Origin: Planctomycetota bacterium
GTDB lineage: Bacteria > Planctomycetota > UBA1135 > UBA2386
Assembly: GCA_016795295.1 (NCBI GenBank)
Contig: JAEUHP010000007.1
Coordinates: forward strand, 1-64,000
Direction: 5' to 3'
DNA: 64,000 nt
The notes below the pieces were generated by a model. That model made no database searches and had not been told where the DNA came from. It worked only from the letters and a program-made list of their open reading frames with translations. The first letter of the stretch is position 1. Each line of letters opens with the position of its first letter. A program made the translations under genes and the position numbers. Positions 3,234 through 38,562 of the stretch are shown here, piece after piece.

Positions 3234-3261
3234 GCCCCCCGCCAGCAGCGGCAGAGAGGAA

Positions 3262-3627
3262 GTGCTTGGTCTTCGTAAGCCGGGTTCTGGTGCCGCCCGA
3301 ACGGGCGGTGACGGCCATTTCTCTAGGACCGTCCTCGCGGACGGCCGCCAACGACCTACCCGAGGATCGAGCGCGGGCCGCGCGATCCTCCTATTCGGTC
3401 TTCCTCCAGGTGGGGTTTGCCGCGCGGCGCAGTCGCCTGCGCCGGGGTGAGCTCTTACCTCACCGTTTCACCCTTGCCGTCGCCAGCGAGCTGGCCGTCC
3501 GGCGGTATGTTCTCTGTGGCACTGTCCCGGTCCTTGCGGACGGTGGGCGTTACCCACCACCTTGCCCTTGGGAGCCCGGACTTTCCTCCCGCGGCCGAAG
3601 CCGCCGGCGGCCGTCCGAAGACCAAGC
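3262..3627 (-). ncRNA. rnpB: RNase P RNA (class A)
   Basis: RNA component of RNase P, which cuts the 5' leader from tRNA precursors. Reading the minus strand, the 5' region has GAGGAAAGTCCGGGCT, the invariant P4/J2 signature, and the 3' end has CAGAACCCGGCTTACG. The terminal helix P1 is clear: GCTTGGTCTTCG (3627-3616) pairs with CGAAGACCAAGC (3275-3264). The length of about 366 nt fits bacterial class A. Ends are set from P1 and may be off by a few nucleotides. Confidence 0.95.
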
Positions 3628-14930: not shown

Positions 14931-15160
14931 CCGCGGTCCCTGGCGTGCCGCCTTCCCACGGCGCGGCAGGTTCCGTCCGCTAACCCCTCCGAACGTCCCT
15001 TCGGCACTTTCTCTTTGGCGGCTCGCCCAACCGCGTCCTGTCGGCATGCAGCGACGAGGTCGGCGCGGCGCTGGCCAACCAGGTAGTGCAGTCGGGCAGC
15101 TCCGTCGTCCCTCCGGGCTCGCCCTCTCCTCTTGTTCGCCCTCACTGCAGGCATCCCAGC

Positions 15161-17794
15161 ATGATCACGGTTCAGACCCTGCGCTTGCGCGGCCTAGTTG
15201 CTTCGTCCTTGCTCGCCTTGGCCGCCTGTTCGGGCACGCCGAGTCAGCCCGACCAGTCCCCTGGCGAGGCCGCCGCTGGCCAGCCGATGGCTGGCCAACC
15301 CTCCCGGACTGCCGGCGGTTCGGGTAGCCAAGATCCCATCCCCGAGTCGCAGCGCCGCGGCGTCTTGCTGGCGCGCGCCCTGGAAAACGGCAAGCAGTTC
15401 CTCGCAGTGGGCCAGTATGAGCAGGCGCGGGGTGAAGCGCTGTTCGCCCTGGAACTCGACCCCAAGAGCAGCGAAGCGCGCGAGCTGCTGGCCAAGTGCC
15501 AAGCCGTGCTCGCCGACGCCCCGCTGACCAGCCCGCAGGGCCGGCTCGACCAAGCGGTGATGCTCGACAAGATCCGCGCCGAGCGGGAACGTTCGATCGT
15601 GGAGAACGATCTGCAGATGGGCCGCGCCAACCTGCAGCAGGGCAACTTCGGCCGCGCGGTCGACCACTTCGAACGCGCGGCGATCGCGCTGCGCTTCTCG
15701 CCCTACACGCAGCCCAACGACCCGAAGCGCAAGGAAGTCGAAGCGGAGCTGGCCAATGCGCGTGAAGCCAAGGCCAAGGCCGAAGCGGATCGCATCGACC
15801 GCGCCAAGAGCGCTTCCGAGGAAGAGCTGCGCCGGCTCGAGGCCGAGCAGCAAGTCGCCCGTTCGCTGCGCGTGGAGCGCATGCTCGAGCAGGCCAACCT
15901 GAGCTTCCAAGCCGGCCGCTACGAGGAATCGCTGAAGCTGGTCGACCAGGCCCTGCTCCTGGATCCGATCAACCCCACGGCGACCGCGCTGCGCGACCTC
16001 GCCGACCGGGCCCGCCACAACACCACGGTCGACAACGCCCGCGAGCGCTTCCGCATCGAGTGGAACAAGACGTTCTTGGAACTGCAGCACAGCAACCTGC
16101 CGCAGACCGAGACGGTGCAGTTCAACCCGGAGCGCTGGGCCCTCGTGTCGCAACGCGCGCCGGCCAGCTTCACCACGCCGAACGACCTCTACGCGCCCGA
16201 GAACCAGGCCGTCATCGAGGTGCTGGAGAGCACCGACCGCGCCTCGGAGCACCACTTCCCGCTCGGCACCACCCTGGCCGACTGGGCGGCGCACTACGCG
16301 CAGCGCACCAACATCACGTTCTTCATCGAAGAATCGGCGAAGGCGCTGCCCGTCGAGCAAACCACGCTCTCGGACTTCCACCTGCCGCGCAAGTCCGTGG
16401 CCGAGGCCCTGCGCAACATCCAGGCCCAGACCGGCGTCGCCTTCAAGGTCCGGGATGGCATGGTGCGTCTGGCTGCCAGCACCGGCACGCCGGATGGCCC
16501 CTACTTCGTGGACAAGATCCTCGTGCACGATCTGGTCAAGGGTTACCGGGACAAGCCAGGCCCCGTGCTGACGCTGCCGGTCCCCGGCGTCGACGTGCCG
16601 CTGTTCCCCGAGGGCGAAGAGAATCCCCCGCCGCCGGTCGTCGACGAGGCCAAGCTTCAGGATCTGCTCAAGGGCCTGATCGCGCAGGACAAGTGGGACG
16701 GCAACCCGTTCACCATGAACATCCAGGCGGGTGTGATGTTCGTGTATGCCAATGCCGACACGCACCGCCAGATCTCGCAGGTGGTCAACCAGCTGCGCAA
16801 GCACGTCGGCATCCAGGTGGACCTGGAGTCGCGCTTCCTGAAGGTCGAGGACAGCTTCCTCGAGGACGTCGGTGTCGACCTGCGCGGCCTCGGTGACCAG
16901 TCGGCCCAGGGCTTGGCCGGTCGCGGCTTGGAGAAGAACGGGCTGCGCCCGAATGCCGGCTTCGAGGACTTCGGCCCTCGGCAGCAGCAGAACGCCTCGG
17001 TCCCCGGGGTGGTCGGCACCGGCACTTCGCCGGGCTTGTTCTTCGACAACGGTCGCGACGGCGACTACATGGCCCGCATCGAGAACCTCTACAACGGCAC
17101 CCTGGGTGGCCGTCGCGACGGTCTCAGCAACGCCGGCGGTCTGGCGTTGCAGTATGCGTTCCTCGACGACACCGAAGTCGAGTTGGTGTTGCGCGCGGTG
17201 GCCAAGCAGGAGCGCAGCGAGACGATCGACGCGCCCCGCCTGTTGGTGTTCAACAACGTGCAGGCGTCGATGCACCACCTGCAGAACATCGCCTACATCC
17301 GCGACTTCGACGTCGAAATCGCGCAGAACGCAGCCGTCGCGAACCCGGTGGTCGGCGTGGTCCACGAGGGCGTCACGCTCGACGTCAAGCCGGTCGTGGA
17401 TGCCGACCTGCGTTTCATCACCATGGAGCTGCGGCCCACGGTGATGACGCTGCAACTGCCGATCCCGACCTTCACCACCACTCTGGGTGTCGGCCAGCCG
17501 ATCTCGATCCAGATTCCCGAGGTCAACCTGCAGAAGGTGCGCACCACGGTGACCCTGCCGGACGGCGGCACGATGATGCTGGGCGGCATGCGCTTGGTCG
17601 AGCGGCAGAACATGCGTTCGACCGTGCCGCTGATCGGCAACCTGCCCGGCCTGAGCTGGCTCTTCACCCGCAAGGGAACCTCGGTGCAGAACCGCAAGAT
17701 CCTGATCCTGATCAAGGCTCGGATCATCCTGATGAACGAGTGGGAGCCGACGACGGTGGTCGGTCAAGACGGCCGCATGGTCTCGGCCAAGTAG
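15161..17794 (+). CDS. TPR-secretin lipoprotein, paralogue 1
   Basis: An 877-residue predicted outer-membrane lipoprotein. The signal peptide ends in the lipobox LAAC (Cys 24). Residues 70-300 are TPR-like and coiled (QFLAVGQYEQARGEALFALE, SFQAGRYEESLKLVDQALLL). An STN/N0-type domain lies near 380-440. The C-terminal 250 residues match the secretin pore domain: APRLLVFNNVQASM, GVTLDVKPVVDADLRFITME, TTVTLPDGGTMMLGGMR, then VPLIGNLPGLSWLF in place of the canonical VPLLGDIPVLG-LF. Secretins form gated outer-membrane channels in type II and III secretion and type IV pili, but none of the other machine parts are here. It has its own promoter and terminator. Confidence 0.82.
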   Translation: MITVQTLRLRGLVASSLLALAACSGTPSQPDQSPGEAAAGQPMAGQPSRTAGGSGSQDPIPESQRRGVLLARALENGKQFLAVGQYEQARGEALFALELDPKSSEARELLAKCQAVLADAPLTSPQGRLDQAVMLDKIRAERERSIVENDLQMGRANLQQGNFGRAVDHFERAAIALRFSPYTQPNDPKRKEVEAELANAREAKAKAEADRIDRAKSASEEELRRLEAEQQVARSLRVERMLEQANLSFQAGRYEESLKLVDQALLLDPINPTATALRDLADRARHNTTVDNARERFRIEWNKTFLELQHSNLPQTETVQFNPERWALVSQRAPASFTTPNDLYAPENQAVIEVLESTDRASEHHFPLGTTLADWAAHYAQRTNITFFIEESAKALPVEQTTLSDFHLPRKSVAEALRNIQAQTGVAFKVRDGMVRLAASTGTPDGPYFVDKILVHDLVKGYRDKPGPVLTLPVPGVDVPLFPEGEENPPPPVVDEAKLQDLLKGLIAQDKWDGNPFTMNIQAGVMFVYANADTHRQISQVVNQLRKHVGIQVDLESRFLKVEDSFLEDVGVDLRGLGDQSAQGLAGRGLEKNGLRPNAGFEDFGPRQQQNASVPGVVGTGTSPGLFFDNGRDGDYMARIENLYNGTLGGRRDGLSNAGGLALQYAFLDDTEVELVLRAVAKQERSETIDAPRLLVFNNVQASMHHLQNIAYIRDFDVEIAQNAAVANPVVGVVHEGVTLDVKPVVDADLRFITMELRPTVMTLQLPIPTFTTTLGVGQPISIQIPEVNLQKVRTTVTLPDGGTMMLGGMRLVERQNMRSTVPLIGNLPGLSWLFTRKGTSVQNRKILILIKARIILMNEWEPTTVVGQDGRMVSAK

Positions 17795-23811: not shown

Positions 23812-24371
23812 GCGCAATCGAAGACGCCCAGGAAGAGGTCAAGCCGGACATGACGCCGATGATCGACGTCGTGTTCCTGATGATCATTTTCTTCATCTGC
23901 ATCGACTTCAAGGTGCTGGAGTCCAAGCTCCCTGCCTACCTGCCGAAGGACAAAGGTAGCCAGAACACCAAGGTGGAACCGCAGGAACAGTTGTCGATCA
24001 AGATCTACGTCGACAACAAGGGAACGCCGACCTATCCGGACGGCGCCAACGCGAATTCGATCAATCCGAACACGAACCGCCCCTACCGCTTCGTGCTCAA
24101 GGACCACCGCATCCGTTGGGAGGTCGGTCCCAAGCCGATCGCCGACCTGAAGGCGGTCAAGGACGAGCTGACGAAGATCGCGCTGGATCCGGCCAGCCAA
24201 GTCAAGGACGAGACCGCACCCGGTGGCAAGAAGCTGATGAGCTGCGTGATCGAAGCCTACCCGGGCACGTTCTACGACGACGTGGCCAAGACGGCGGACG
24301 CGGCCAACGACGCGGGCTTCAAGGAAATCAACTTCGGCGGCGGGTTGGGCCCGGCGCCCGGCAAGAAGTAG
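23808..24371 (+). CDS. ExbD/TolR-type protein 2
   Basis: A 187-residue paralogue of the preceding protein. KPDMTPMIDVVFLMIIFFIC holds the signature Asp at the start of the single membrane helix. The periplasmic domain has strands EQLSIKIYVDNKG, RFVLKDHRIRWEV and SCVIEAYPG, and ends in FKEINFGGGLGPAPGKK as in other ExbD proteins. The GTG start at 23808 overlaps the previous stop. Two different ExbD-type proteins with one ExbB-type protein occur in gliding and polymer-uptake systems of other bacteria; the partner of this set is not known. Confidence 0.88.
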   Translation: MSAIEDAQEEVKPDMTPMIDVVFLMIIFFICIDFKVLESKLPAYLPKDKGSQNTKVEPQEQLSIKIYVDNKGTPTYPDGANANSINPNTNRPYRFVLKDHRIRWEVGPKPIADLKAVKDELTKIALDPASQVKDETAPGGKKLMSCVIEAYPGTFYDDVAKTADAANDAGFKEINFGGGLGPAPGKK

Positions 24372-24460
24372 CCCCTGCGAAAAGGCGCGGGCTCGAAGGC
24401 CCTCGACAACTCCCGCCCGGGACCTCCACAGAGGCCCGGGCGGAGTCGTTTGCGCAGGGG
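24372..24460 (+). terminator. Nested hairpin closing the ExbBD operon
   Basis: An outer stem (CCCCTGCG 24372-24379 with CGCAGGGG 24453-24460) begins directly after the TAG and encloses a strong inner stem (CCGCCCGGG 24413-24421 with CCCGGGCGG 24435-24443). CGTTTTGCG follows. It is probably a terminator or 3'-end stabiliser. Confidence 0.55.
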
Positions 24461-24697
24461 CGTTTTGCGTCCCGAACCAGGTGGGCCCCTCGCTGCGCCC
24501 CAGAAGCTCCGCCTGGCGTGCCGACGGCTCGACAAGCCGCCGATGCAGAGCATCTGCCCCCCCGAGTCAGGGCAGACTCAGCGCGGAGACGTGGCGCCAC
24601 CCGAACGGCGAGACACCCCGACGCCCGCGCAACCGTGCTCGGTCCGCGCAAACCGCCCAGCGCAGCACGAGAATCCGACTTCACCGCGAAAATGGGC

Positions 24698-24946
24698 TGG
24701 CGCGTCCGGGTGGGCAAGGCTAGCTTCCGGCCTCCCCTGGCCGCTCTCCGCAACCCGGAACGGCCTTCCGTCCGCTCTCGGTCTGTCGACAAGTCCCTCT
24801 CGACCGCTGCCCGCGTGCATGGCGCCCTCCGTGCCCTGCAGAGTCCACTGCAGAATCGCGTGCTGCGTTCGCTTGTCGGTTGGCTGAGAGACGGAGGCTG
24901 CTTTCGCCGCCTCCGCGTGATCCCTGAATGCACCGAGCGTGACCCG
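24698..24946 (+). promoter_or_regulatory. Probable promoter and leader of the second secretin gene
   Basis: GCTAGCTTCCG at 24719-24729 aligns with GCTACCGTCCG (14923-14933) at the -10 region of the first secretin gene, and TTCCGTCCGCT lies 47-48 nt further on in both (24766-24776 and 14971-14981). The -10 would be TAGCTT (24721-24726); the -35 (TGGCGC, 24698-24703) is weak. A hairpin CGGAGGC/GCCTCCG (24892-24898, 24909-24915) sits 31 nt before the ATG. I see nothing recognisable in 24461-24697. Confidence 0.4.
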
Positions 24947-27547
24947 ATGGCTCTCGAAAACTCGCGCCTTCTCGCTGCCTCACTGACCGCTGCGATCCTC
25001 GGCACTTCCTGCTCCACTCCGAGCGATTCCTCCAACGCCAACCCCCAGGCGGACCGCACTGGTGCCAACGCGGCCGACGCGCCGTCTGCCGAGAACGGCA
25101 CGGGACAGCGTCAGGATCCCCAATCCGGTGAGCAGCGGCTCGGCGAAGAACGCCGTCAGGCGCTGGTGGCCGCGTACCTGGAGCGCGCGGAATCGATGCG
25201 CGCCAATGGCCAGTTGCTCGCCGCCAAGAGCGAGTTGCTGAAGGCGCAGAATCTGGCACCGGCCAACGAACAAGTGTTCCGCCTGCTGTCGGCCGTGCAG
25301 GCCGAGCTGGGCGAACCGACCGGTCGCGTGACCACCTTCGCCGACGAGCAGCTGCGCCTGCAGAAGATCGGCGAAGAGCGTGCGCGCGCCGACGTTGCGA
25401 CGCGCCTACAGCGGGCCGACGGACTGGTCGCCGAGAAGAACTACACCGGCGCCATCGAAGAGCTGCGGCTGGCAGCTCTGACGGTCGAACTGAAGGACCA
25501 GGTCGACTGGATGGGCAAGCGCGAAGAGGTCGCCGCCAAGAAGGCTGCCGCGGAGCAGCTGCTGGCCGACCAGCAACGCGCGGAGCAAGCCGCAGAGAAC
25601 AAGCGCCTCGCCGAGCGCCTGCGGGAAGAGTACCAGGCCGCTGAGCGGCACCGCCGCGTGCAAGTGGACACCCTGCTGCTCGAGTCCCAGCACGCGTTCG
25701 TCAACCGTCGCTTCGCCTACGCGCAGGAGTGCGCCCGCCGGGCGCTCGAGATCGATCCGAACAGCACCGTGGCGGCGGAGATGATCAGCGCCTCGGTCAA
25801 GGCTTCGCGCGAGAGCTCCACCGACGCCTACTACCTCGAGCGCGCCAAGGCCATCCGCAACATGCTGGAGGCGGACGAGGACCTGAAGGTCCCGCAGACC
25901 GAAGTCCTCGAGCTGAACATGACGACCTGGAAGAAGGCCTTGGATCGCGCTGGCAAGAACCGGCGCACCGAGGAAGTCTCTCCGGCCGACCAGCACCTGC
26001 TCGACAAGATCAAGACGGTGTCGGTGAGCAAGCTGACCTACACGGAGGAGAACGGCGCGTTCCTCGACGTGATCAACAACCTCAAGCTCAGCACCGGCGA
26101 GCAGATCCTCGTCACCCCGGAAGCCCGCAAGATCATCGAGGAAGAGAGCCTGAAGGTGCAGATCGAAGTCCGGGGGCAGATGACCCTCCACGACTTCTTG
26201 AACTTCCTGTGCCAAACCTCGACCAAGCTCGCCTGGACGGTTCGCAACGGTGTGATCCTGATCGGCGACAAGTCGCAGGCGTCCGGGACCTTGAGCACGG
26301 AGATCTATCCGGTCAAGGACTTGGTGATGAAGCACAAGCAGTTCTTGGCGCCGCGTATCCGTGACATCCCGGGCGAGTCGAACAACAACACGGAAGACTC
26401 CCCGCGCTTTGGCAGCGAAGCGGAAGACCCGATCGTGTTCGTCGAACTCGACGCCCTGAAGAAGCACGTCGAAGACGCCACGGACCCGAAGTACTGGGCC
26501 GATGCCGAAGCCAACGGCGGCTGCGTCATCACCACCGAAGAGAGCGGCTTCCTGGTCGTCAAGGCCAGCCCCGAGCTGCAGAAGCAGGTGCAGCAGATCC
26601 TCGCTGACATGCGCCGGTTCGCCACGCCGGTGGTCACCATCGACTCCAAGTTCTTGACCATCTCGCGCAACTACCTGCAGGAAGTCGGCATCGACTTCCG
26701 CGGTTTGGGCGGTGCTGGCAACAAGGGCGATGCCGTGTCGCTGGACGACGTGACCAACGGCCTGCAGAACAACGCCTCGCGCGGCCTCGACAACAGCGGC
26801 ACCGGGGACCCGGCTGCCAATCCCATGGCTGGCGCGTTCTTCAACGACGGCGGCGACGGTGACGTGCGCGCCCGCACCGAGAACTTCTTCACTTCCGACC
26901 TGAGCCGCGTGCTCTCGCCAACCGGCGGCTTCACGGGCGCCTGGACCCTGATCGGCGACACGCAGCTGAACATGATCCTGCGCGCGGTCGAGAAGCAGCA
27001 GGACGTGGAAGTGGTGAACAGCCAGATCCTCTCGGTCACCAACAACCAGCGCGGCCACGTGGCGGTCATCAACCAGACCACCTACATCCGCGACTTCGAC
27101 GTGGAAGTGGCCCAGGCCGCCTTCATCGCCGACCCGAAGATCGACATCATTCAGGATGGCATCGTGCTGGAGGTCGAGCCGACCATCCAACACGACCGCA
27201 AGTACATCATCCTGAACCTGAATCCGACGGTTTCGGAACTGACCCGGCCGATCCCGACGTTCACGACGTCCCTGGCCGGTTCGACGCTGCCGGTGACGCT
27301 GCAGCTGCCGCGCCTCTTGGTGACGAACTTCACCACCACGGTGACGGTGCCGGACGGCGGATCGGTGCTGCTCGGTGGCCTGCGCCAAACGCTCAACAAG
27401 GAGCGGCGCGCGGAGGTTCCGGTGCTGTCTCGCCTGCCGATCCTGTCGTTCTTCTTCAAGCAGGAAGGTTCGGCAGACGAGAACCGCAACCTGATGGTCC
27501 TGGTGCGCGCCCAGATCACCGACGTGATCGAGAAGCTGGGCAAGTGA
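24947..27547 (+). CDS. TPR-secretin protein, paralogue 2
   Basis: An 866-residue paralogue of the product of 15161-17794 with the same order: signal peptide (LLAASLTAAILGTSC, a poor lipobox), Ser/Gln/Asn-rich spacer, TPR/coiled region (residues 60-260), N0/STN-type domain near 355-445 (LHDFLNFLCQTSTKLAWTVR), and a C-terminal secretin domain (NSQILSVTNNQRGHVAVINQ, GIVLEVEPTIQHDRKYIILN, TVTVPDGGSVLLGGLRQ, VPVLSRLPILSFFFKQ). Both share the unusual VGxDxRGLG motif before the pore domain. It has its own promoter and terminator, so its dose may be set apart from the motor genes. Confidence 0.82.
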   Translation: MALENSRLLAASLTAAILGTSCSTPSDSSNANPQADRTGANAADAPSAENGTGQRQDPQSGEQRLGEERRQALVAAYLERAESMRANGQLLAAKSELLKAQNLAPANEQVFRLLSAVQAELGEPTGRVTTFADEQLRLQKIGEERARADVATRLQRADGLVAEKNYTGAIEELRLAALTVELKDQVDWMGKREEVAAKKAAAEQLLADQQRAEQAAENKRLAERLREEYQAAERHRRVQVDTLLLESQHAFVNRRFAYAQECARRALEIDPNSTVAAEMISASVKASRESSTDAYYLERAKAIRNMLEADEDLKVPQTEVLELNMTTWKKALDRAGKNRRTEEVSPADQHLLDKIKTVSVSKLTYTEENGAFLDVINNLKLSTGEQILVTPEARKIIEEESLKVQIEVRGQMTLHDFLNFLCQTSTKLAWTVRNGVILIGDKSQASGTLSTEIYPVKDLVMKHKQFLAPRIRDIPGESNNNTEDSPRFGSEAEDPIVFVELDALKKHVEDATDPKYWADAEANGGCVITTEESGFLVVKASPELQKQVQQILADMRRFATPVVTIDSKFLTISRNYLQEVGIDFRGLGGAGNKGDAVSLDDVTNGLQNNASRGLDNSGTGDPAANPMAGAFFNDGGDGDVRARTENFFTSDLSRVLSPTGGFTGAWTLIGDTQLNMILRAVEKQQDVEVVNSQILSVTNNQRGHVAVINQTTYIRDFDVEVAQAAFIADPKIDIIQDGIVLEVEPTIQHDRKYIILNLNPTVSELTRPIPTFTTSLAGSTLPVTLQLPRLLVTNFTTTVTVPDGGSVLLGGLRQTLNKERRAEVPVLSRLPILSFFFKQEGSADENRNLMVLVRAQITDVIEKLGK

Positions 27548-29976: not shown

Positions 29977-30765
29977 CTAGCTCCGGTAGCGCTGCGCGCG
30001 CTGCTGGTCGAGTTCACCCCGGACCGCCAGGTACTGTTCGACGTGGACCACGTAGGCCTCCATCTCCGCCGTGAGCCGCAAAGCCAGGTCCTGCGCGTGC
30101 GCCCGCAACACTTCTTGCCACGACCGTGCGTCGCGCACCCACGAATGAGGATGGATCAAGGTGTGCAGGCGGGGGTGGTGGAACTTGGTGCACACGCAGC
30201 CTTCGCGCCAGTGGAAGCCGCTGTCGCCGAAGTACGGAATGTCGCGCACCAGCGCTGGCTGGTAGGCACACGGGTGGTCGGGACTGATGTCGGCGAGCAC
30301 CGGGCCGGCCGCCGGCTGGTGCTGCGCGATCGTATGGGTTCGGAAGCCCACCAACGCCTCGAACGTGCGCAAGTCCGCACGCGTGCCCGCCACCGGGTCC
30401 GTGCCGCGCTCGAGGAAGAAGCCGGGTTCGTAGTGCAGGCCCACTTCGTGCCCCAGCGCCGCCACCTGGCGCACCGAATCGAGCACCGCGCCGTCCATCA
30501 GGTTGTAGAACGGCGCATGCAGGCGGTAGTAGTAGGTCGTGTGCACGCCGAGTTCGTGCTCGAGCTGCGCCATGCGCAGCGCACTCCACGGCGTGATGTC
30601 GACATCGTGCCGGATCAGCAGGAAGTCGCGCTCCGGCAGCCCTCGCGCCACGTCCCGCACCAGCGGCAGCCAGTAGCGCTGCTTCGCCACTTCGAGCAGA
30701 TGCCGGTAGTGCGGCAAGCTGTAGGCACAGCGCGGCTCCGGTGGCAAGTCGGCTCCGTCGTTCAC
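29977..30765 (-). CDS. HDVD-type polysaccharide deacetylase-like protein
   Basis: A 262-residue protein of the NodB-like fold, in the subgroup with RHDVD rather than TFDDG. LLIRHDVDITPWSAL (from residue 49) holds the catalytic/metal Asp pair D54 and D56, and LGHEVGLHYEPGF supplies the two metal His residues. Family members remove N- or O-acetyl groups from sugars; the subgroup is common in surface-glycan clusters. Expected product: a sugar with a free amine. The GTG start at 30765 overlaps the stop of the upstream lipoyl/beta-helix gene (GTGA), so the two are coupled. Confidence 0.75.
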   Translation of the reverse strand: MNDGADLPPEPRCAYSLPHYRHLLEVAKQRYWLPLVRDVARGLPERDFLLIRHDVDITPWSALRMAQLEHELGVHTTYYYRLHAPFYNLMDGAVLDSVRQVAALGHEVGLHYEPGFFLERGTDPVAGTRADLRTFEALVGFRTHTIAQHQPAAGPVLADISPDHPCAYQPALVRDIPYFGDSGFHWREGCVCTKFHHPRLHTLIHPHSWVRDARSWQEVLRAHAQDLALRLTAEMEAYVVHVEQYLAVRGELDQQRAQRYRS

Positions 30766-32391: not shown

Positions 32392-34392
32392 TCAGTACTC
32401 CCGGACCAACGCCCGCGCCATGGCCGCCACGGCCGCCGCGTCGGGCATCACCAGTTCCTCCAACTGCGGCGACGACGGCATCGGCGTGTGCGCCGCAGCC
32501 ACCTTGCAGAGGGGTGCGTGCAACCAGCCGAACACCACCGGCAGCAGCGCGCCGATCCACGCATCGCCAACGCCGCCCACGGCCGACCCTTCGTGCACGA
32601 CCACGCCGCGGCCGGTGGTGCGCAGCACTTCGGCACAGGTTTCGACGTCCAAGGGGGCCAACGATCGCAGATCGACGATCCCGGCGTCGATGCCTTCGCC
32701 AGCCAGCATCGCCGCGGCAGCCTGGCACAGCGGCAAGCACTGCCCATAGGTGAACAGGGTCACGTCGCGCCCGTCTCGGTCGATGCGCGCGCGGCCGAAC
32801 GGCACCAGGTGGTCGGCCGCGGGCATCACGCCACGCGCCGGATAGAGCAACTTCGGCTCCAGGAACAGCACTGGGGCCGCGGTGCGCAGCGCGGTGCGCA
32901 ACAGCCCCACCGCGTCGGCCAGATTGGCCGGGCAGACCACCTGCAGCCCCGGCACGTGCAGGAACCAGGCCTCGAGACTCTGGCTGTGCGTGGCGCCGTA
33001 GCCGTGCCGGCGGCCGATCGGCATGCGCACCGTCAGCGGCACCTGCACCTGGCCCGCGTACATGTAGCGCAGCTTCGCCGCGTGGTTGACCAGCGCGTCC
33101 ATGCAGCAGGTGACGAAGTCGCCGAACATCAGCTCGACCACCGGATGCAGGCCGCCCATCGCCGCGCCGACCGCGAGTCCGGTGAAGCCGTTCTCGCTGA
33201 TCGGCGTCTCGCGCACGCGTGCCGGCCCGAACTGCTGCAGGAGGCCGCGCGTCACCCCGAACGCGCCGCCGTAGGCACCGAGGTCTTCGCCGAGCAGCAG
33301 CACGCGTGGGTCGCGTTCGAGTTCGCCGCGCAAGGTCTCGCGCAGCGCTTCGGTCACGGTGGTGCTGCTACCGGCAGCGATCCGGCACGGCGCGGGCCCC
33401 GGTTCGGCCGCTGGCAGGTCGAGGTCCGCGAGCGCCACGGCGCGATCCCCGGGCGGCGCCGCCAAGGCAAACCGCACCGCCGCGGCGATCTCGGCCTCCA
33501 CTTCTTGCGCCACTGCAGCCACCGCCGCGGGTGCCAGCTCCGCCGCAGCCTGCCACAGCAGCAACGGATCGCGCTGCCGCCAGGCCGCATCGTCCGCTGC
33601 ATCCCGGTAGACGCACGGATCGCTCTTGCTGTGGCCGAAGTGCCGCCAAGTCGTGCATTCGAGCAGCGCCGGCCCTTCGCCCGCACGCGCCCGCGCCAGC
33701 AGCGGCGCCGCCGCCGCCAGCACCGCGCCGAGCTGGTTGCCGTCGCAGCGCGCCGTCGCCATGCCCCGGTAGCGGCTCGCCCATTCGGTGTAGTCGGCGC
33801 ACGCAGAATGCGCCGCCACCGGCGTCGACATGGCGAAGCCGTTGTTCTCCAACACGAACACCACCGGCAGTCGCCACAGCGCCGCCAGGTTGAGACTCTC
33901 GTGGAACGCCCCCGTGGCGGCAGCGCCGTCGCCCAGATACGCCACCACCACGCGGCCGGTGCCGCGCAACTGTTGCGCGAGCGCGAGCCCCGCCGCGATC
34001 GGCAGGCCCCCGCCCGTGATGCCATTGCTGCCGAAGTGCCCGATCTCGGGCACCGCGGTGTGCTGGCTGCCGCCCTTGCCGCGGCAGTAACCGGCAGCGC
34101 GCCCGGCGAACTCCGCCAGCGTGCGATCCGCTGCCGCCCCTTTGGCCAGCAGGTGGCCGTGGCCGCGGTGGGTGCTGGTCACCAGATCGTCTGGTTCGAG
34201 CAGCGCCGAAACCCCCACCGGCACCGCCTCCTGACCCGCGCACAGATGTGTGGTGCCGCCGATCGCCCCGCTGCCGACCAGCCGGTGCAGTTCCTGCTCG
34301 AAGCGGCGGATGCGCAGCATGCTGCGGTAGAGCTGCAACGGTTGCAGCTGCGGCGTCTGGCTGGCGGCCGCGTTGGCGGGACACGGGTGCAT
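32392..34392 (-). CDS. Fused alpha-beta E1 of a 2-oxoacid dehydrogenase-like complex
   Basis: A 666-residue thiamine-diphosphate enzyme with both E1 subunits in one chain. The alpha half (1-330) has THLCAGQEAVPVG, STHRGHGHLLAKG and the cofactor motif from GDG (154-156) to NN (183-184). The beta half (345-666) has LLLGEDLGAYGGAFGVTRGL, ETPISENGFTGLAVGAAMGG and HSQSLEAWFLHVPGL. It would decarboxylate a 2-oxoacid and pass the acyl group to a lipoyl domain, most likely the one in the next gene. ATG 34392 was chosen; an upstream start at 34506 adds 38 residues with no family match. No E3 is encoded nearby. Confidence 0.88.
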   Translation of the reverse strand: MHPCPANAAASQTPQLQPLQLYRSMLRIRRFEQELHRLVGSGAIGGTTHLCAGQEAVPVGVSALLEPDDLVTSTHRGHGHLLAKGAAADRTLAEFAGRAAGYCRGKGGSQHTAVPEIGHFGSNGITGGGLPIAAGLALAQQLRGTGRVVVAYLGDGAAATGAFHESLNLAALWRLPVVFVLENNGFAMSTPVAAHSACADYTEWASRYRGMATARCDGNQLGAVLAAAAPLLARARAGEGPALLECTTWRHFGHSKSDPCVYRDAADDAAWRQRDPLLLWQAAAELAPAAVAAVAQEVEAEIAAAVRFALAAPPGDRAVALADLDLPAAEPGPAPCRIAAGSSTTVTEALRETLRGELERDPRVLLLGEDLGAYGGAFGVTRGLLQQFGPARVRETPISENGFTGLAVGAAMGGLHPVVELMFGDFVTCCMDALVNHAAKLRYMYAGQVQVPLTVRMPIGRRHGYGATHSQSLEAWFLHVPGLQVVCPANLADAVGLLRTALRTAAPVLFLEPKLLYPARGVMPAADHLVPFGRARIDRDGRDVTLFTYGQCLPLCQAAAAMLAGEGIDAGIVDLRSLAPLDVETCAEVLRTTGRGVVVHEGSAVGGVGDAWIGALLPVVFGWLHAPLCKVAAAHTPMPSSPQLEELVMPDAAAVAAMARALVREY

Positions 34393-34527: not shown

Positions 34528-37500
34528 TCATCCCTGCGTTGCCATCGGCTGCACCGGCGCACCCGTGTAACGGCGCCCCGCCAACAGCACTTCCTGCTTC
34601 ATGACCACGCTGTGCGGCGTGACTTCCGCACCAGCCCCGATCGACGCCCCGTACAACACCACCGAAGCGTGCCCGAGCGTCGCGCCAGCACCGACCCGCA
34701 CCGGCGCGATCTTCAGCACGCGGTCCTCGAACGTGTGCGCCTGGAACATCGTGTCCACCGTGGCGCCATCGCCGAACTCCAGCATGTCCGGGTCCACCAC
34801 GTGCGCGAAGCCGGGCCCGAGCACCACTCCACGCCCCAATCGCATGCCCATGGCGCGCAGACACCAAGCGAGCCACGGCGTGCCGCCGAACGGTGCCAGC
34901 ACCGGCCGCGCCAAGAAGCCCCACAGCACGTACAAGAAGTCCCAGCGGCTGCACCAGCACGACCACAGCCCGTGCTGGCCGGAGCGCACGCGTCCGAGCA
35001 GCAGCCACTTCGCCGCACACACGAAGAGCACCGCCGCAGCCCCGGTCGCCACCGAGGCCAACACGGCACGGAAGAGCCAGCCCACACTCGCCTCAGGCGC
35101 CCCGGCGACCTGCCACCAGCACCCCAGCAGGGCCGCAGCGGCGAACGGCAGCGCGCAGCGCAGCAGTTCCCACACCGCTCGGTTGGTGCGCTGCAACCAG
35201 CCCGGCGCCACGGTCAGGCGCGCGTCGACGGCGACCACTTCGCGCTGCGGCAACGGGAACGGTGGCAAACCGAACCACGCCGAACCCGCCGGCATGCGCG
35301 TCCCGTCGGCCACCGTGCACACCCCGAGCAGCAGATCGTCTGGCAACACCGTGCCGGCCGGCACCACCACGTGGTTGCCGAGGAAAGTCCGCTCGCCGAG
35401 CTGCACCGGGCCGATGCGCAGCGCTCCGGCGCGCAGCACCGGCTCGCCGAGGTAGATGCCGTCGGCCAGGAAGCAGGTGCCGCCGAGGGTCAGGTGCTCC
35501 GGGAGCGTGCCGGTGATGGTGCTGATCTCGGCGGCACGGCCGATGCGCGCGCCGGCGAGGCGCAGGAACCACGGCCAGAACAGCGTGCCGGACAGCCAGA
35601 CGCCCGCGGCTTCGAGTTCGTGGCTGCGGTGTTCGAACAGCACATGGGCCACGCTGCGCACCGCGTGCCAGCCCGTGGCCACCCGCGGCGACCAGCGCAA
35701 CCAACAGGCCGCGCCGAGCACGCGCAGCGGCACCCAGCCGAGCAACGCCAAGGCCAAGGCCCCCACTGGCAACGGGCCAGCGAACTCGCCGAGCACCGCG
35801 CCGAACAGGGCCACTTGGCCCGTCGTCGCCGCCAGCAGCGCCACCAAGGCCAACACGGCGAGGCCCGCGCCGGCGGCACTGGCAGCCCGCAGCGCCAACA
35901 CCAGCAGCGTGTGGGCGAGCGCCGGCAACGCGGCCGCAACCCCACCCGCCAACGCTGGCGGCGCGTCGGCGTCGGCAAGGCAGCGCGCCGCCGGCACGCC
36001 GTCCCACACCTCGCCCGCCGGCACCGCCACACCCCGCGGCGGAATCGCATGCGGTCGCAGCCGCGCCCCGGCCCCGAGCGAACTGCCGCCCTGCAGACCA
36101 CTGCGCACCTCCAGCACGGCCCGCGGGCCGAGTTGCACCGGCGCATGCACCAGCAGGCCATCGCGCAACTCGACGAGCCCGAGCGCCGCATCGCGGCCGA
36201 CCACGGCCCCGTCGCCCACTTCGAGCAGCGCCCAGGCGCCGCGGCGCAGTTCCACGCCGCGCGCGAAGTGCACGCCTCGGCCGATCCGCGCACCGAGCCA
36301 GCGCAGTGCAGCGTTCTGCAGCGCAGTGCCCTGCAGCAGGTCCCACGGCACCCAGCGCGCCAGCCGTTCGACGCACCAGTGGCGCAGGTAGGGCAGGCTG
36401 TGCACGGGCACCGCACCCGGTTGCACCCGGCCCACCAGCAGCCAGGCGCCGAAACGCACCGCGGCCAGCGCCGGAAGCGTCCAGGCAAGGCGTACGAGCC
36501 AGGCGGCGACCGGCACCACCACCCAGGCCGACCAGCCAAACGGCGACAGGGCTGCCACGCACGGTTGCCACGGCCACACGGCCAGCAGCCACAAGGCGCC
36601 GGCCAGTTCGGCGGCGAGCCACGCAGCCTGCAGGCAGGCGACGAGGCGCGGGCGCGGGCGGGCCGCCACCGTGGCCGGTTCGCGTTGCCGAGGCTCGGCC
36701 TGGCCAGAGCCAGCCGCGGCGAACCGGGCCAGCGCACGCGCGGTGCGCTGTTCGTAGACCGCACGCACAGTGATCGCCGCGGTGGCGGGCTGGGCGCGCA
36801 GGCGGGACACCAGCGCGGCGGCGCGCAGCGAGTTGCCGCCGAGCGCGAAAAAATCGTCGTCCGGCCCCGCCTTGGTGCCGAGCTCGGTGCCGACGGCGGC
36901 AGTGATCACCGCCAGCAAGTCCCCTGCGGCGTCGTTGGTGCCCCAAGACGCAGCGCCCGCGCGCGCCGCGGCGGTGGCAGGTTCGACCATGGTTCCGGCA
37001 GCAGGTCCGGCAGCGGCCGCCAGCGCGGGCAAGCCAGCGAGCACCGCCCGCCGGTCGAGTTTGCCACCCACCGTGGTCGGCAATGCGTCGACCACCCACC
37101 AGCGCTCCGGCACGCAGTGTGGCGGCAGCAGGCTGCGCAGGGCCAAAGCGAGTGCCGGTGTCGCCAGCGCGGCTTCGGGGTGTGCCGGCACCACACACGC
37201 CACCAGTTGGTCGCCTTGCAGCACACACGCCGCCTGCCGTACCCCGGGCAACAGGGTGATCTGCGCTTCGATCTCGGCGAGCTCGACGCGGTGGCCGCGC
37301 ACCTTGACCTGGGCATCCAGGCGGCCGTGGTAATAGAGCGCGCCATCCGGAGCGCGGTGCACGGCATCGCCCGTGCGGTAGATGCGGCCGAACTGCGGAT
37401 GCGCGACGAACTTGACCGCGGTCGCTTCCGGCGCCCCGAGGTAACCACGTGCCAGCACGGCACCGCCGATGCACAGTTCGCCGCGTTCGCCATCGGCCAC

Positions 37501-38562
37501 CGGCTCCAGCGCCTCGTCCAGCACGTGCGCCACGGCCCCCGGCACCGGATGGCCGATCGCCACCGGCACACCAGGGCGCACTTCGGCGCGCAGCACGGTG
37601 ACCGTGCACTCGGTCGGGCCATAGCCGTTGACGCAGCGGCGGCCCCGGGCAAAGGCATCGGCGAGGTCCTGGGGCAGCGCCTCGCCACCGGCATAGACCA
37701 GCCGCAGGGCCGGCAGTTCGCGCCACGGCTCGCGGCACGCCATCGCGCGCAACTGGGTCGGTGGCGGACACAGCACGGTGATGCGTTCGCGCCGCAGCCA
37801 TGCCGGCAGGTCGGGGCCGAGCCTGGCCGTGTCGTGGTCGAGCGGCACCACGGTGGCGCCCGCGGCGAGTGCCAGCCACACTTCTTCGACCGATGAATCG
37901 TACGCTGGGGACGAACCCTGGGCGACGCGGTCGCCGGGGCCGAGGCCGAACTCGAGCAGGTCGTGCGCAACCAGGTTGGCGATGGTGCGGTGCTCGATCG
38001 CCACGGCCTTGGGCCGGCCGGTGGTGCCCGAGGTGAACACCAGATACGCGAGGTGTTCGGGCAGGATGGCGTTTGCACCGCGCGCGTTCGGCAGCGGCAA
38101 GGCGGCCGGGGCTGGCACCGCGACCGCCGCCGCGAGCAGCGCACCCACGTCGTAGGCCGGCAGGTCCGGCCGCAGTACGCGGAGGCGCCGGCAGCCGGCG
38201 GCATCGGTCAGCACCGCCCGCGCCGCGGCTTCGTCGAGCAAGGTCGCAAGGTGCGCATCGGGGTGGCTCGGCTCGAGGCCGGTGTAGGCCGCGCCGGCCG
38301 AGAGCACGCCGAGCTGCGCGGCATAGAGCTCGGGCCCACCCCGCGACAGGCACAGCGCCACCACCGCGTCGGCTCCCGCATGGGGCGCCACCCGCTCGGC
38401 GACCGCAGCGGCCATGGCCGCCAGGGCGCGGTAACTCAGGATCGTGCGGGGCTGCGCACCGCTCGGCGGCACGTCGAGCGCGCACTCGTTCGGCCAGCGC
38501 TGCACCGCGCGCCAGAAGAACTCATGCAGCAACGAAGGGTGGCGCGGCTCGGGCGAGGGCAT
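34528..38562 (-). CDS. Pls/PosA-type single-module NRPS with membrane beta-helix tail
   Basis: A 1344-residue protein. Residues 1-500 are an adenylation domain: core A3 LVFTSGTTGRPKA (174-186), A4 AYDSSVEEVW with the Asp that usually binds an alpha-amino group, A5 NGYGPTECTV, A7 YRTGD, A10 TVGGKLDRR. A carrier domain follows (DDDFFALGGNSLRAA, Ser for phosphopantetheine). There is no normal condensation or thioesterase domain; instead about 700 residues hold membrane helices and at least three hexapeptide beta-helix segments (GARIGRGVHFARGVELRRG, GARIGRAAEISTITG, LGHASVVLYGASIGAG), the layout of the terminal region of polylysine-synthetase-like (Pls/PosA) proteins. It probably joins an amino acid to itself or to a membrane acceptor. 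First gene of the cluster. Confidence 0.85.
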   Translation of the reverse strand: MPSPEPRHPSLLHEFFWRAVQRWPNECALDVPPSGAQPRTILSYRALAAMAAAVAERVAPHAGADAVVALCLSRGGPELYAAQLGVLSAGAAYTGLEPSHPDAHLATLLDEAAARAVLTDAAGCRRLRVLRPDLPAYDVGALLAAAVAVPAPAALPLPNARGANAILPEHLAYLVFTSGTTGRPKAVAIEHRTIANLVAHDLLEFGLGPGDRVAQGSSPAYDSSVEEVWLALAAGATVVPLDHDTARLGPDLPAWLRRERITVLCPPPTQLRAMACREPWRELPALRLVYAGGEALPQDLADAFARGRRCVNGYGPTECTVTVLRAEVRPGVPVAIGHPVPGAVAHVLDEALEPVADGERGELCIGGAVLARGYLGAPEATAVKFVAHPQFGRIYRTGDAVHRAPDGALYYHGRLDAQVKVRGHRVELAEIEAQITLLPGVRQAACVLQGDQLVACVVPAHPEAALATPALALALRSLLPPHCVPERWWVVDALPTTVGGKLDRRAVLAGLPALAAAAGPAAGTMVEPATAAARAGAASWGTNDAAGDLLAVITAAVGTELGTKAGPDDDFFALGGNSLRAAALVSRLRAQPATAAITVRAVYEQRTARALARFAAAGSGQAEPRQREPATVAARPRPRLVACLQAAWLAAELAGALWLLAVWPWQPCVAALSPFGWSAWVVVPVAAWLVRLAWTLPALAAVRFGAWLLVGRVQPGAVPVHSLPYLRHWCVERLARWVPWDLLQGTALQNAALRWLGARIGRGVHFARGVELRRGAWALLEVGDGAVVGRDAALGLVELRDGLLVHAPVQLGPRAVLEVRSGLQGGSSLGAGARLRPHAIPPRGVAVPAGEVWDGVPAARCLADADAPPALAGGVAAALPALAHTLLVLALRAASAAGAGLAVLALVALLAATTGQVALFGAVLGEFAGPLPVGALALALLGWVPLRVLGAACWLRWSPRVATGWHAVRSVAHVLFEHRSHELEAAGVWLSGTLFWPWFLRLAGARIGRAAEISTITGTLPEHLTLGGTCFLADGIYLGEPVLRAGALRIGPVQLGERTFLGNHVVVPAGTVLPDDLLLGVCTVADGTRMPAGSAWFGLPPFPLPQREVVAVDARLTVAPGWLQRTNRAVWELLRCALPFAAAALLGCWWQVAGAPEASVGWLFRAVLASVATGAAAVLFVCAAKWLLLGRVRSGQHGLWSCWCSRWDFLYVLWGFLARPVLAPFGGTPWLAWCLRAMGMRLGRGVVLGPGFAHVVDPDMLEFGDGATVDTMFQAHTFEDRVLKIAPVRVGAGATLGHASVVLYGASIGAGAEVTPHSVVMKQEVLLAGRRYTGAPVQPMATQG

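Follow-up and report, generated by a model that had tools for sequence, protein, structure and literature searches.

A planctomycete single-module NRPS from a sister clade of the Pls/PosA synthetases, with a likely preference for a large cationic amino acid

Introduction

What does a nonribosomal peptide synthetase (NRPS) with a single adenylation (A) and peptidyl carrier (PCP) module make when the module is followed by a membrane-associated tail? Characterised Pls/PosA enzymes are few, and they define an antimicrobial polymer family. The window, a 64,000-nucleotide stretch of a Planctomycetota genome, contains such a gene (P0001, 34528..38562, reverse strand), which encodes a protein of 1344 aa from an ATG start with an A-PCP-Pls-like tail order. 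Here we ask to which family this enzyme belongs, which amino acid it activates, and whether its tail builds a polymer or hands the amino acid to another acceptor.

Results

An intact A-PCP module without condensation or thioesterase domains

The A domain spans residues 16-501 (37060..38517, reverse strand), as delimited by Pfam, NCBIfam and the specificity-code residues, and the PCP spans residues 553-614 by Pfam (36721..36906, reverse strand). The Pfam scan assigned AMP-binding to residues 16-375, AMP-binding_C to 430-501 and PP-binding to 553-614, and placed hexapeptide repeats near the C-terminus. Every core motif is present in the A domain, which scored 352 bits against the NCBIfam AA-adenyl-dom profile (cut-off 317), and the PCP keeps its phosphopantetheine serine within FFALGGNSL. 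Neither the Pfam nor the NCBIfam scan detected a condensation or thioesterase family, so the single A-PCP module lacking both domains, which the initial annotation had proposed, was borne out. The open reading frame shows the same codon-position GC pattern as the real genes of this genome and keeps 195 of the 203 positions whose conservation in its clade is 97% or higher. By these sequence measures it is a real gene, neither a chance reading frame nor a wreck.

The tail is predicted to fold as a Pls/PosA-like triple beta-helix domain

The tail occupies residues 641-1344 (34531..36642, reverse strand) and matches TIGR02353 (NRPS_term_dom, Pls/PosA) over profile positions 39-695 of 695 (E 2e-98, 330 bits). 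An AlphaFold2 model, calculated from an alignment of 66 tails (that of the window and 65 from homologue loci in genome contigs), reached a mean pLDDT of 90.4 and a pTM of 0.92. In the model, three successive units are predicted, each with long helices, shorter helices and a left-handed beta-helix, which together give a six-helix, triple beta-helix domain. From the secondary structure of the model, the first repeat covers residues 641-875 (35938..36642), and the second and third, placed by model and alignment, cover residues 881-1110 (35233..35922) and 1122-1340 (34543..35199), all on the reverse strand. The model agrees with that described for the PosA tail, in which six bent helices lie beneath three left-handed beta-helices (PMC10522769).

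Foldseek matched the tail model mostly to hexapeptide acyltransferases, with serine, galactoside and maltose acetyltransferases as the best hits; the weaker hits included gamma-class carbonic anhydrases. When the tail profile was searched against the PDB, it likewise returned hexapeptide-type proteins exclusively, and neither the sequence profile nor the fold search found a solved structure of the tail itself there. A transporter reading of the tail was rejected since neither the model nor the Foldseek matches gave a transporter-like fold. The structural comparison suggested earlier thus yielded a beta-helix model instead of an unrelated transporter, and the Pls-like membrane and beta-helix tail is upheld by both profile and model. 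Of the tail residues with at least 97% conservation in the clade, 26 also occur in four canonical Pls/PosA-type tails; these include D1034 and N1063 in the second repeat, where G1062 is also common to canonical Pls-type tails, and R1206, Q1274 and H1276 in the third.

A widespread sister clade of Pls/PosA

The score of the tail falls below the curated equivalog cut-off of TIGR02353 (330 versus 423.1 bits). Eight further tails of the same clade scored 349-387 bits, all under the cut-off, whereas two canonical Pls-type tails scored 612 and 677 bits, above it. In a FastTree tree, in which the outgroup branches are long and the exact root is unsure, the clade separates from four plasmid-borne canonical Pls/PosA-type proteins. 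Because the clade tails miss the cut-off, the canonical tails pass it and the tree separates the two, we place the window NRPS, by sequence, in a clade that is sister to Pls/PosA, as a homologue and not as a Pls/PosA equivalog. The label "Pls-type NRPS" given to it before therefore holds for the homologous architecture and tail and does not hold for equivalence.

The same pattern of likeness and difference is seen against the individual enzymes. PosA, the delta-poly-L-ornithine synthetase of Acinetobacter baumannii, shares the A-PCP-tail order, the lack of condensation and thioesterase domains and the modelled arrangement of three beta-helices over six membrane helices (PMC10522769), while its code and substrate are different and the window tail stays under the cut-off of the family. 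Pls, the epsilon-poly-L-lysine synthetase of Streptomyces, shares the architecture and key tail residues; an annotated Pls differs in its code (DAESIGTVVK versus DSECYGGVTK in the window), in its tail score (677 versus 330 bits) and in an adjoining M1 peptidase gene, which has no equivalent by the window NRPS.

Most genomes in the window's family hold a full-length or nearly full-length orthologue of about 45-54% identity, and a scan of genome contigs gave 80 homologues with organism names. Their hosts include Planctomycetota, Sphingomonadales, Verrucomicrobiota, Acidobacteriota, Armatimonadota, Chloroflexota, a myxococcal MAG, a Bdellovibrionales MAG and the Actinomycetota Amycolatopsis, Lentzea, Kutzneria and Actinocrispum; Novosphingobium, Amycolatopsis and Lentzea are among the cultured genera. 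The clade is widespread (at least eight phyla) and almost unstudied, and the family-level mechanism of its NRPS is well supported. The Bdellovibrionales homologue (L144) branches at the base of the clade and is 38% identical to the window protein in the tail, and the window NRPS itself sits on a long end branch (0.81). A member on a Streptomyces plasmid is annotated merely as "amino acid adenylation domain-containing protein"; downstream of this NRPS lie four hypothetical proteins of similar size (about 460 aa; L146:16129-22248).

The specificity code points to a large cationic amino acid

With code positions 278, 299 and 301 anchored on the GGEA motif, the ten code residues are D222, S223, E226, C265, Y290, G292, G313, V321, T322 and K501, which read DSECYGGVTK. 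The code is identical in 85 aligned homologues, and the remaining complete codes of the clade are mostly near variants. Asp222, the A4 Asp, and Glu226 occupy code positions 1 and 3 and are the retained counterparts of Asp217 and Glu221, both essential in PosA (PMC10522769); Glu226 corresponds to the PosA residue that binds the side-chain cation. An aryl-acid adenylating enzyme is excluded by Asp222 at code position 1, where aryl-acid codes have no Asp. The extraction and comparison of the specificity residues thus gave no aryl-acid code, and the claim of an amino-acid-type A domain was confirmed. The further claim, that the kept A4 Asp makes an alpha-amino acid the likely substrate, stood in part: the Asp is there and argues against an aryl acid, but it is no proof of an alpha-amino acid on its own, because the epsilon-poly-beta-lysine synthetase code DGESISVVNK also has Asp at position 1 (PMC10522769), which leaves room for a beta-amino acid.

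Among the codes quoted in PMC10522769, DSECYGGVTK equals that of the uncharacterised Bdello_A and that of no characterised diamino-acid polymerase. Bdello_A (OFZ39577.1), a CHPA synthetase of Bdellovibrionales, is the sole member of the clade singled out in that study, where the assay covered the A domain only: L-arginine was activated modestly, the four diamino acids tested were not preferred, and the authors suspected a larger analogue (PMC10522769). Bdello_A belongs to another phylum, and its order is represented in our clade by L144. From the shared code, the substrate is likely to be a cationic amino acid of greater size than lysine, either arginine or another large one.

Genetic partners of the NRPS in relatives

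A small SET-domain protein is encoded upstream of the NRPS on the same strand in 32 homologue loci across several phyla; for 30 of the 32 the distance to the aligned NRPS start is 0-144 bases (for example L081:7668-8129 and L035:2106-2609, directly upstream; set L066-L146). At least 700 bases of upstream sequence were available in 70 loci. Pfam confirmed the SET domain in one representative. Within the family and order of the window, 14 of 19 other NRPS loci have the SET gene, and in 13 of the 19 an HGSNAT_cat/DUF418 membrane acyltransferase is fused at the NRPS C-terminus or directly downstream (L037:13559-14671, L044:4271-5335 and 11 further same-family loci). The two sets of loci in which partners were counted overlap, with some genomes in both.

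Neither partner is present at the window locus, and a search of the window genome (assembly 91% complete) found no SET homologue elsewhere. Since the sister sequences in the tree have the SET gene, loss is the simplest reading. In most clade genomes without an upstream SET gene, none was found elsewhere either, and no close relative of SET turned up in several Novosphingobium genomes or in the one from Bdellovibrionales. The SET protein is thus a frequent, though dispensable, partner of the clade NRPS, and our literature search found nothing on a SET protein paired with such an NRPS.

The adjacent E1/lipoyl operon is a separate unit

On the same strand, 135 bases past the NRPS stop if the E1 ATG is used, begins a separate conserved operon. 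It encodes a 2-oxoacid dehydrogenase-type E1 alpha-beta fusion (32392..34392), a protein in which a lipoyl and an E3-binding domain are joined to a hexapeptide (LbH) acyltransferase (P0002, 30762..32390), a conserved 262-aa protein of unknown family (29977..30765) that follows P0002 in 13 of 13 relatives, and a GT4-type glycosyltransferase (P0004, 28624..29973), which recurs in the P0002 operon of two other genomes. P0002 lacks the 2-oxoacid_dh catalytic domain and has the hexapeptide acyltransferase where the E2 catalytic domain is expected; two ordinary E2 domains are present elsewhere in the genome. Its lipoyl lysine motif ETLKA is invariant, as is the His of the acyltransferase motif HxNPCR...MTHxF, and the E3-binding domain is missing in one relative (L065). 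A single-sequence AlphaFold2 model of P0002 had a pLDDT of 34, too low to be of use. P0002 may pass acyl groups from the lipoyl group directly to an acceptor without CoA, and no paper on such a fusion was found in our literature search.

Of 61 relatives, 14 hold full or nearly full copies of P0002, as does one other family of the phylum; most of these copies are accompanied by the E1 fusion and the 262-aa protein. The three genes lie together in most P0002 genomes; in two the E1 gene lies a few kilobases off, and in the stretches read from three it was not seen. A promoter and terminator scan of the NRPS-E1 gap gave no match and was uninformative. In the stretches read, the 19 other NRPS loci of the family and order all lacked the operon, and the 13 other operon copies all lacked the NRPS. 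A single conserved pathway of NRPS and operon was therefore rejected, the adjacency being seen in the window only. Because the two are not adjacent in the other loci read, the glycan or lipid acceptor that the initial annotation had read from this setting found no comparative support.

Discussion

From these results, we think it fairly probable that the protein is a membrane-anchored single-module NRPS that makes a short homopolymer. Its A domain would activate L-arginine or a similar cationic amino acid with more bulk than lysine and load it onto the PCP, and the tail would catalyse repeated amide-bond formation at the membrane. The domain order, the absence of condensation and thioesterase domains, the full-length tail match, the three-repeat model, the shared tail residues, the code match and the kept Asp and Glu all speak for this reading. 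Against it stand the tail score below the TIGR02353 cut-off, the modest arginine activity of Bdello_A, a code match that is not a substrate assay, and a window copy that lies on a long branch without the SET neighbour of its sister sequences. If the substrate is arginine, its guanidine is a poor nucleophile, so alpha-peptide bonds or transfer to another acceptor would be expected rather than isopeptide bonds of the polylysine type.

That chemistry also bears on a different possibility, which we regard as doubtful though worth weighing, namely that the tail takes a single amino acid, or a few, off the PCP and attaches them to an acceptor that is not a peptide (a glycan, lipid or sugar amine), and makes no homopolymer. 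An arginine-like substrate is poorly suited to isopeptide polymerisation, the tail is built of acyltransferase-type beta-helices, and many planctomycete orthologues carry a fused HGSNAT/DUF418 membrane acyltransferase. HGSNAT-type acyltransferases act on sugar amines in heparan degradation. The window gene also adjoins the operon with the GT4 glycosyltransferase, but this operon lies beside the NRPS in no other genome examined, neither an acceptor nor a gene for making one is conserved beside the NRPS, and polymers are what the characterised relatives produce (PMC10522769). A conventional cationic homopoly(amino acid) synthetase with lysine, ornithine, diaminobutyrate or diaminopropionate as its substrate would have the same architecture and the same Asp222 and Glu226. 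We consider this unlikely, as the code is unlike that of the annotated Streptomyces Pls and equals that of Bdello_A, with its lack of preference for the four diamino acids, and as the tail falls in a separate clade. Finally, the long end branch and the missing SET neighbour and homologue could be signs that the gene is decaying and no longer functions in this genome; with 1344 open codons, the core motifs, carrier serine and nearly all clade-conserved positions kept, and a strong codon-position signal, this is very improbable.

A more speculative substrate is also conceivable. The clade might make a polymer or conjugate of N-methylated lysine, with the upstream SET protein methylating either free lysine or lysine already bound to the carrier or built into the polymer, and with an enlarged pocket (Ser223, Tyr290 and Gly313, together with Glu226) accepting the methylated side chain. 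We give this idea little credence at present; if true, it would add a class to the known bacterial polycations and give a SET methyltransferase a role outside proteins, and the window genome would have to obtain the amino acid in another way. The one nearly invariant pocket of the sister clade is unlike that of any characterised polymerase, and its SET methyltransferase and membrane acyltransferase partners are concrete starting points in the search for a new polymer or conjugate, also in the cultured genera.

Elsewhere in the window, we noticed a bacterial class A RNase P RNA (3261-3626, reverse strand) and two secretin-domain proteins on the forward strand (15086-17794 and 24116-27547), with MotA/ExbB and ExbD-like genes between them.
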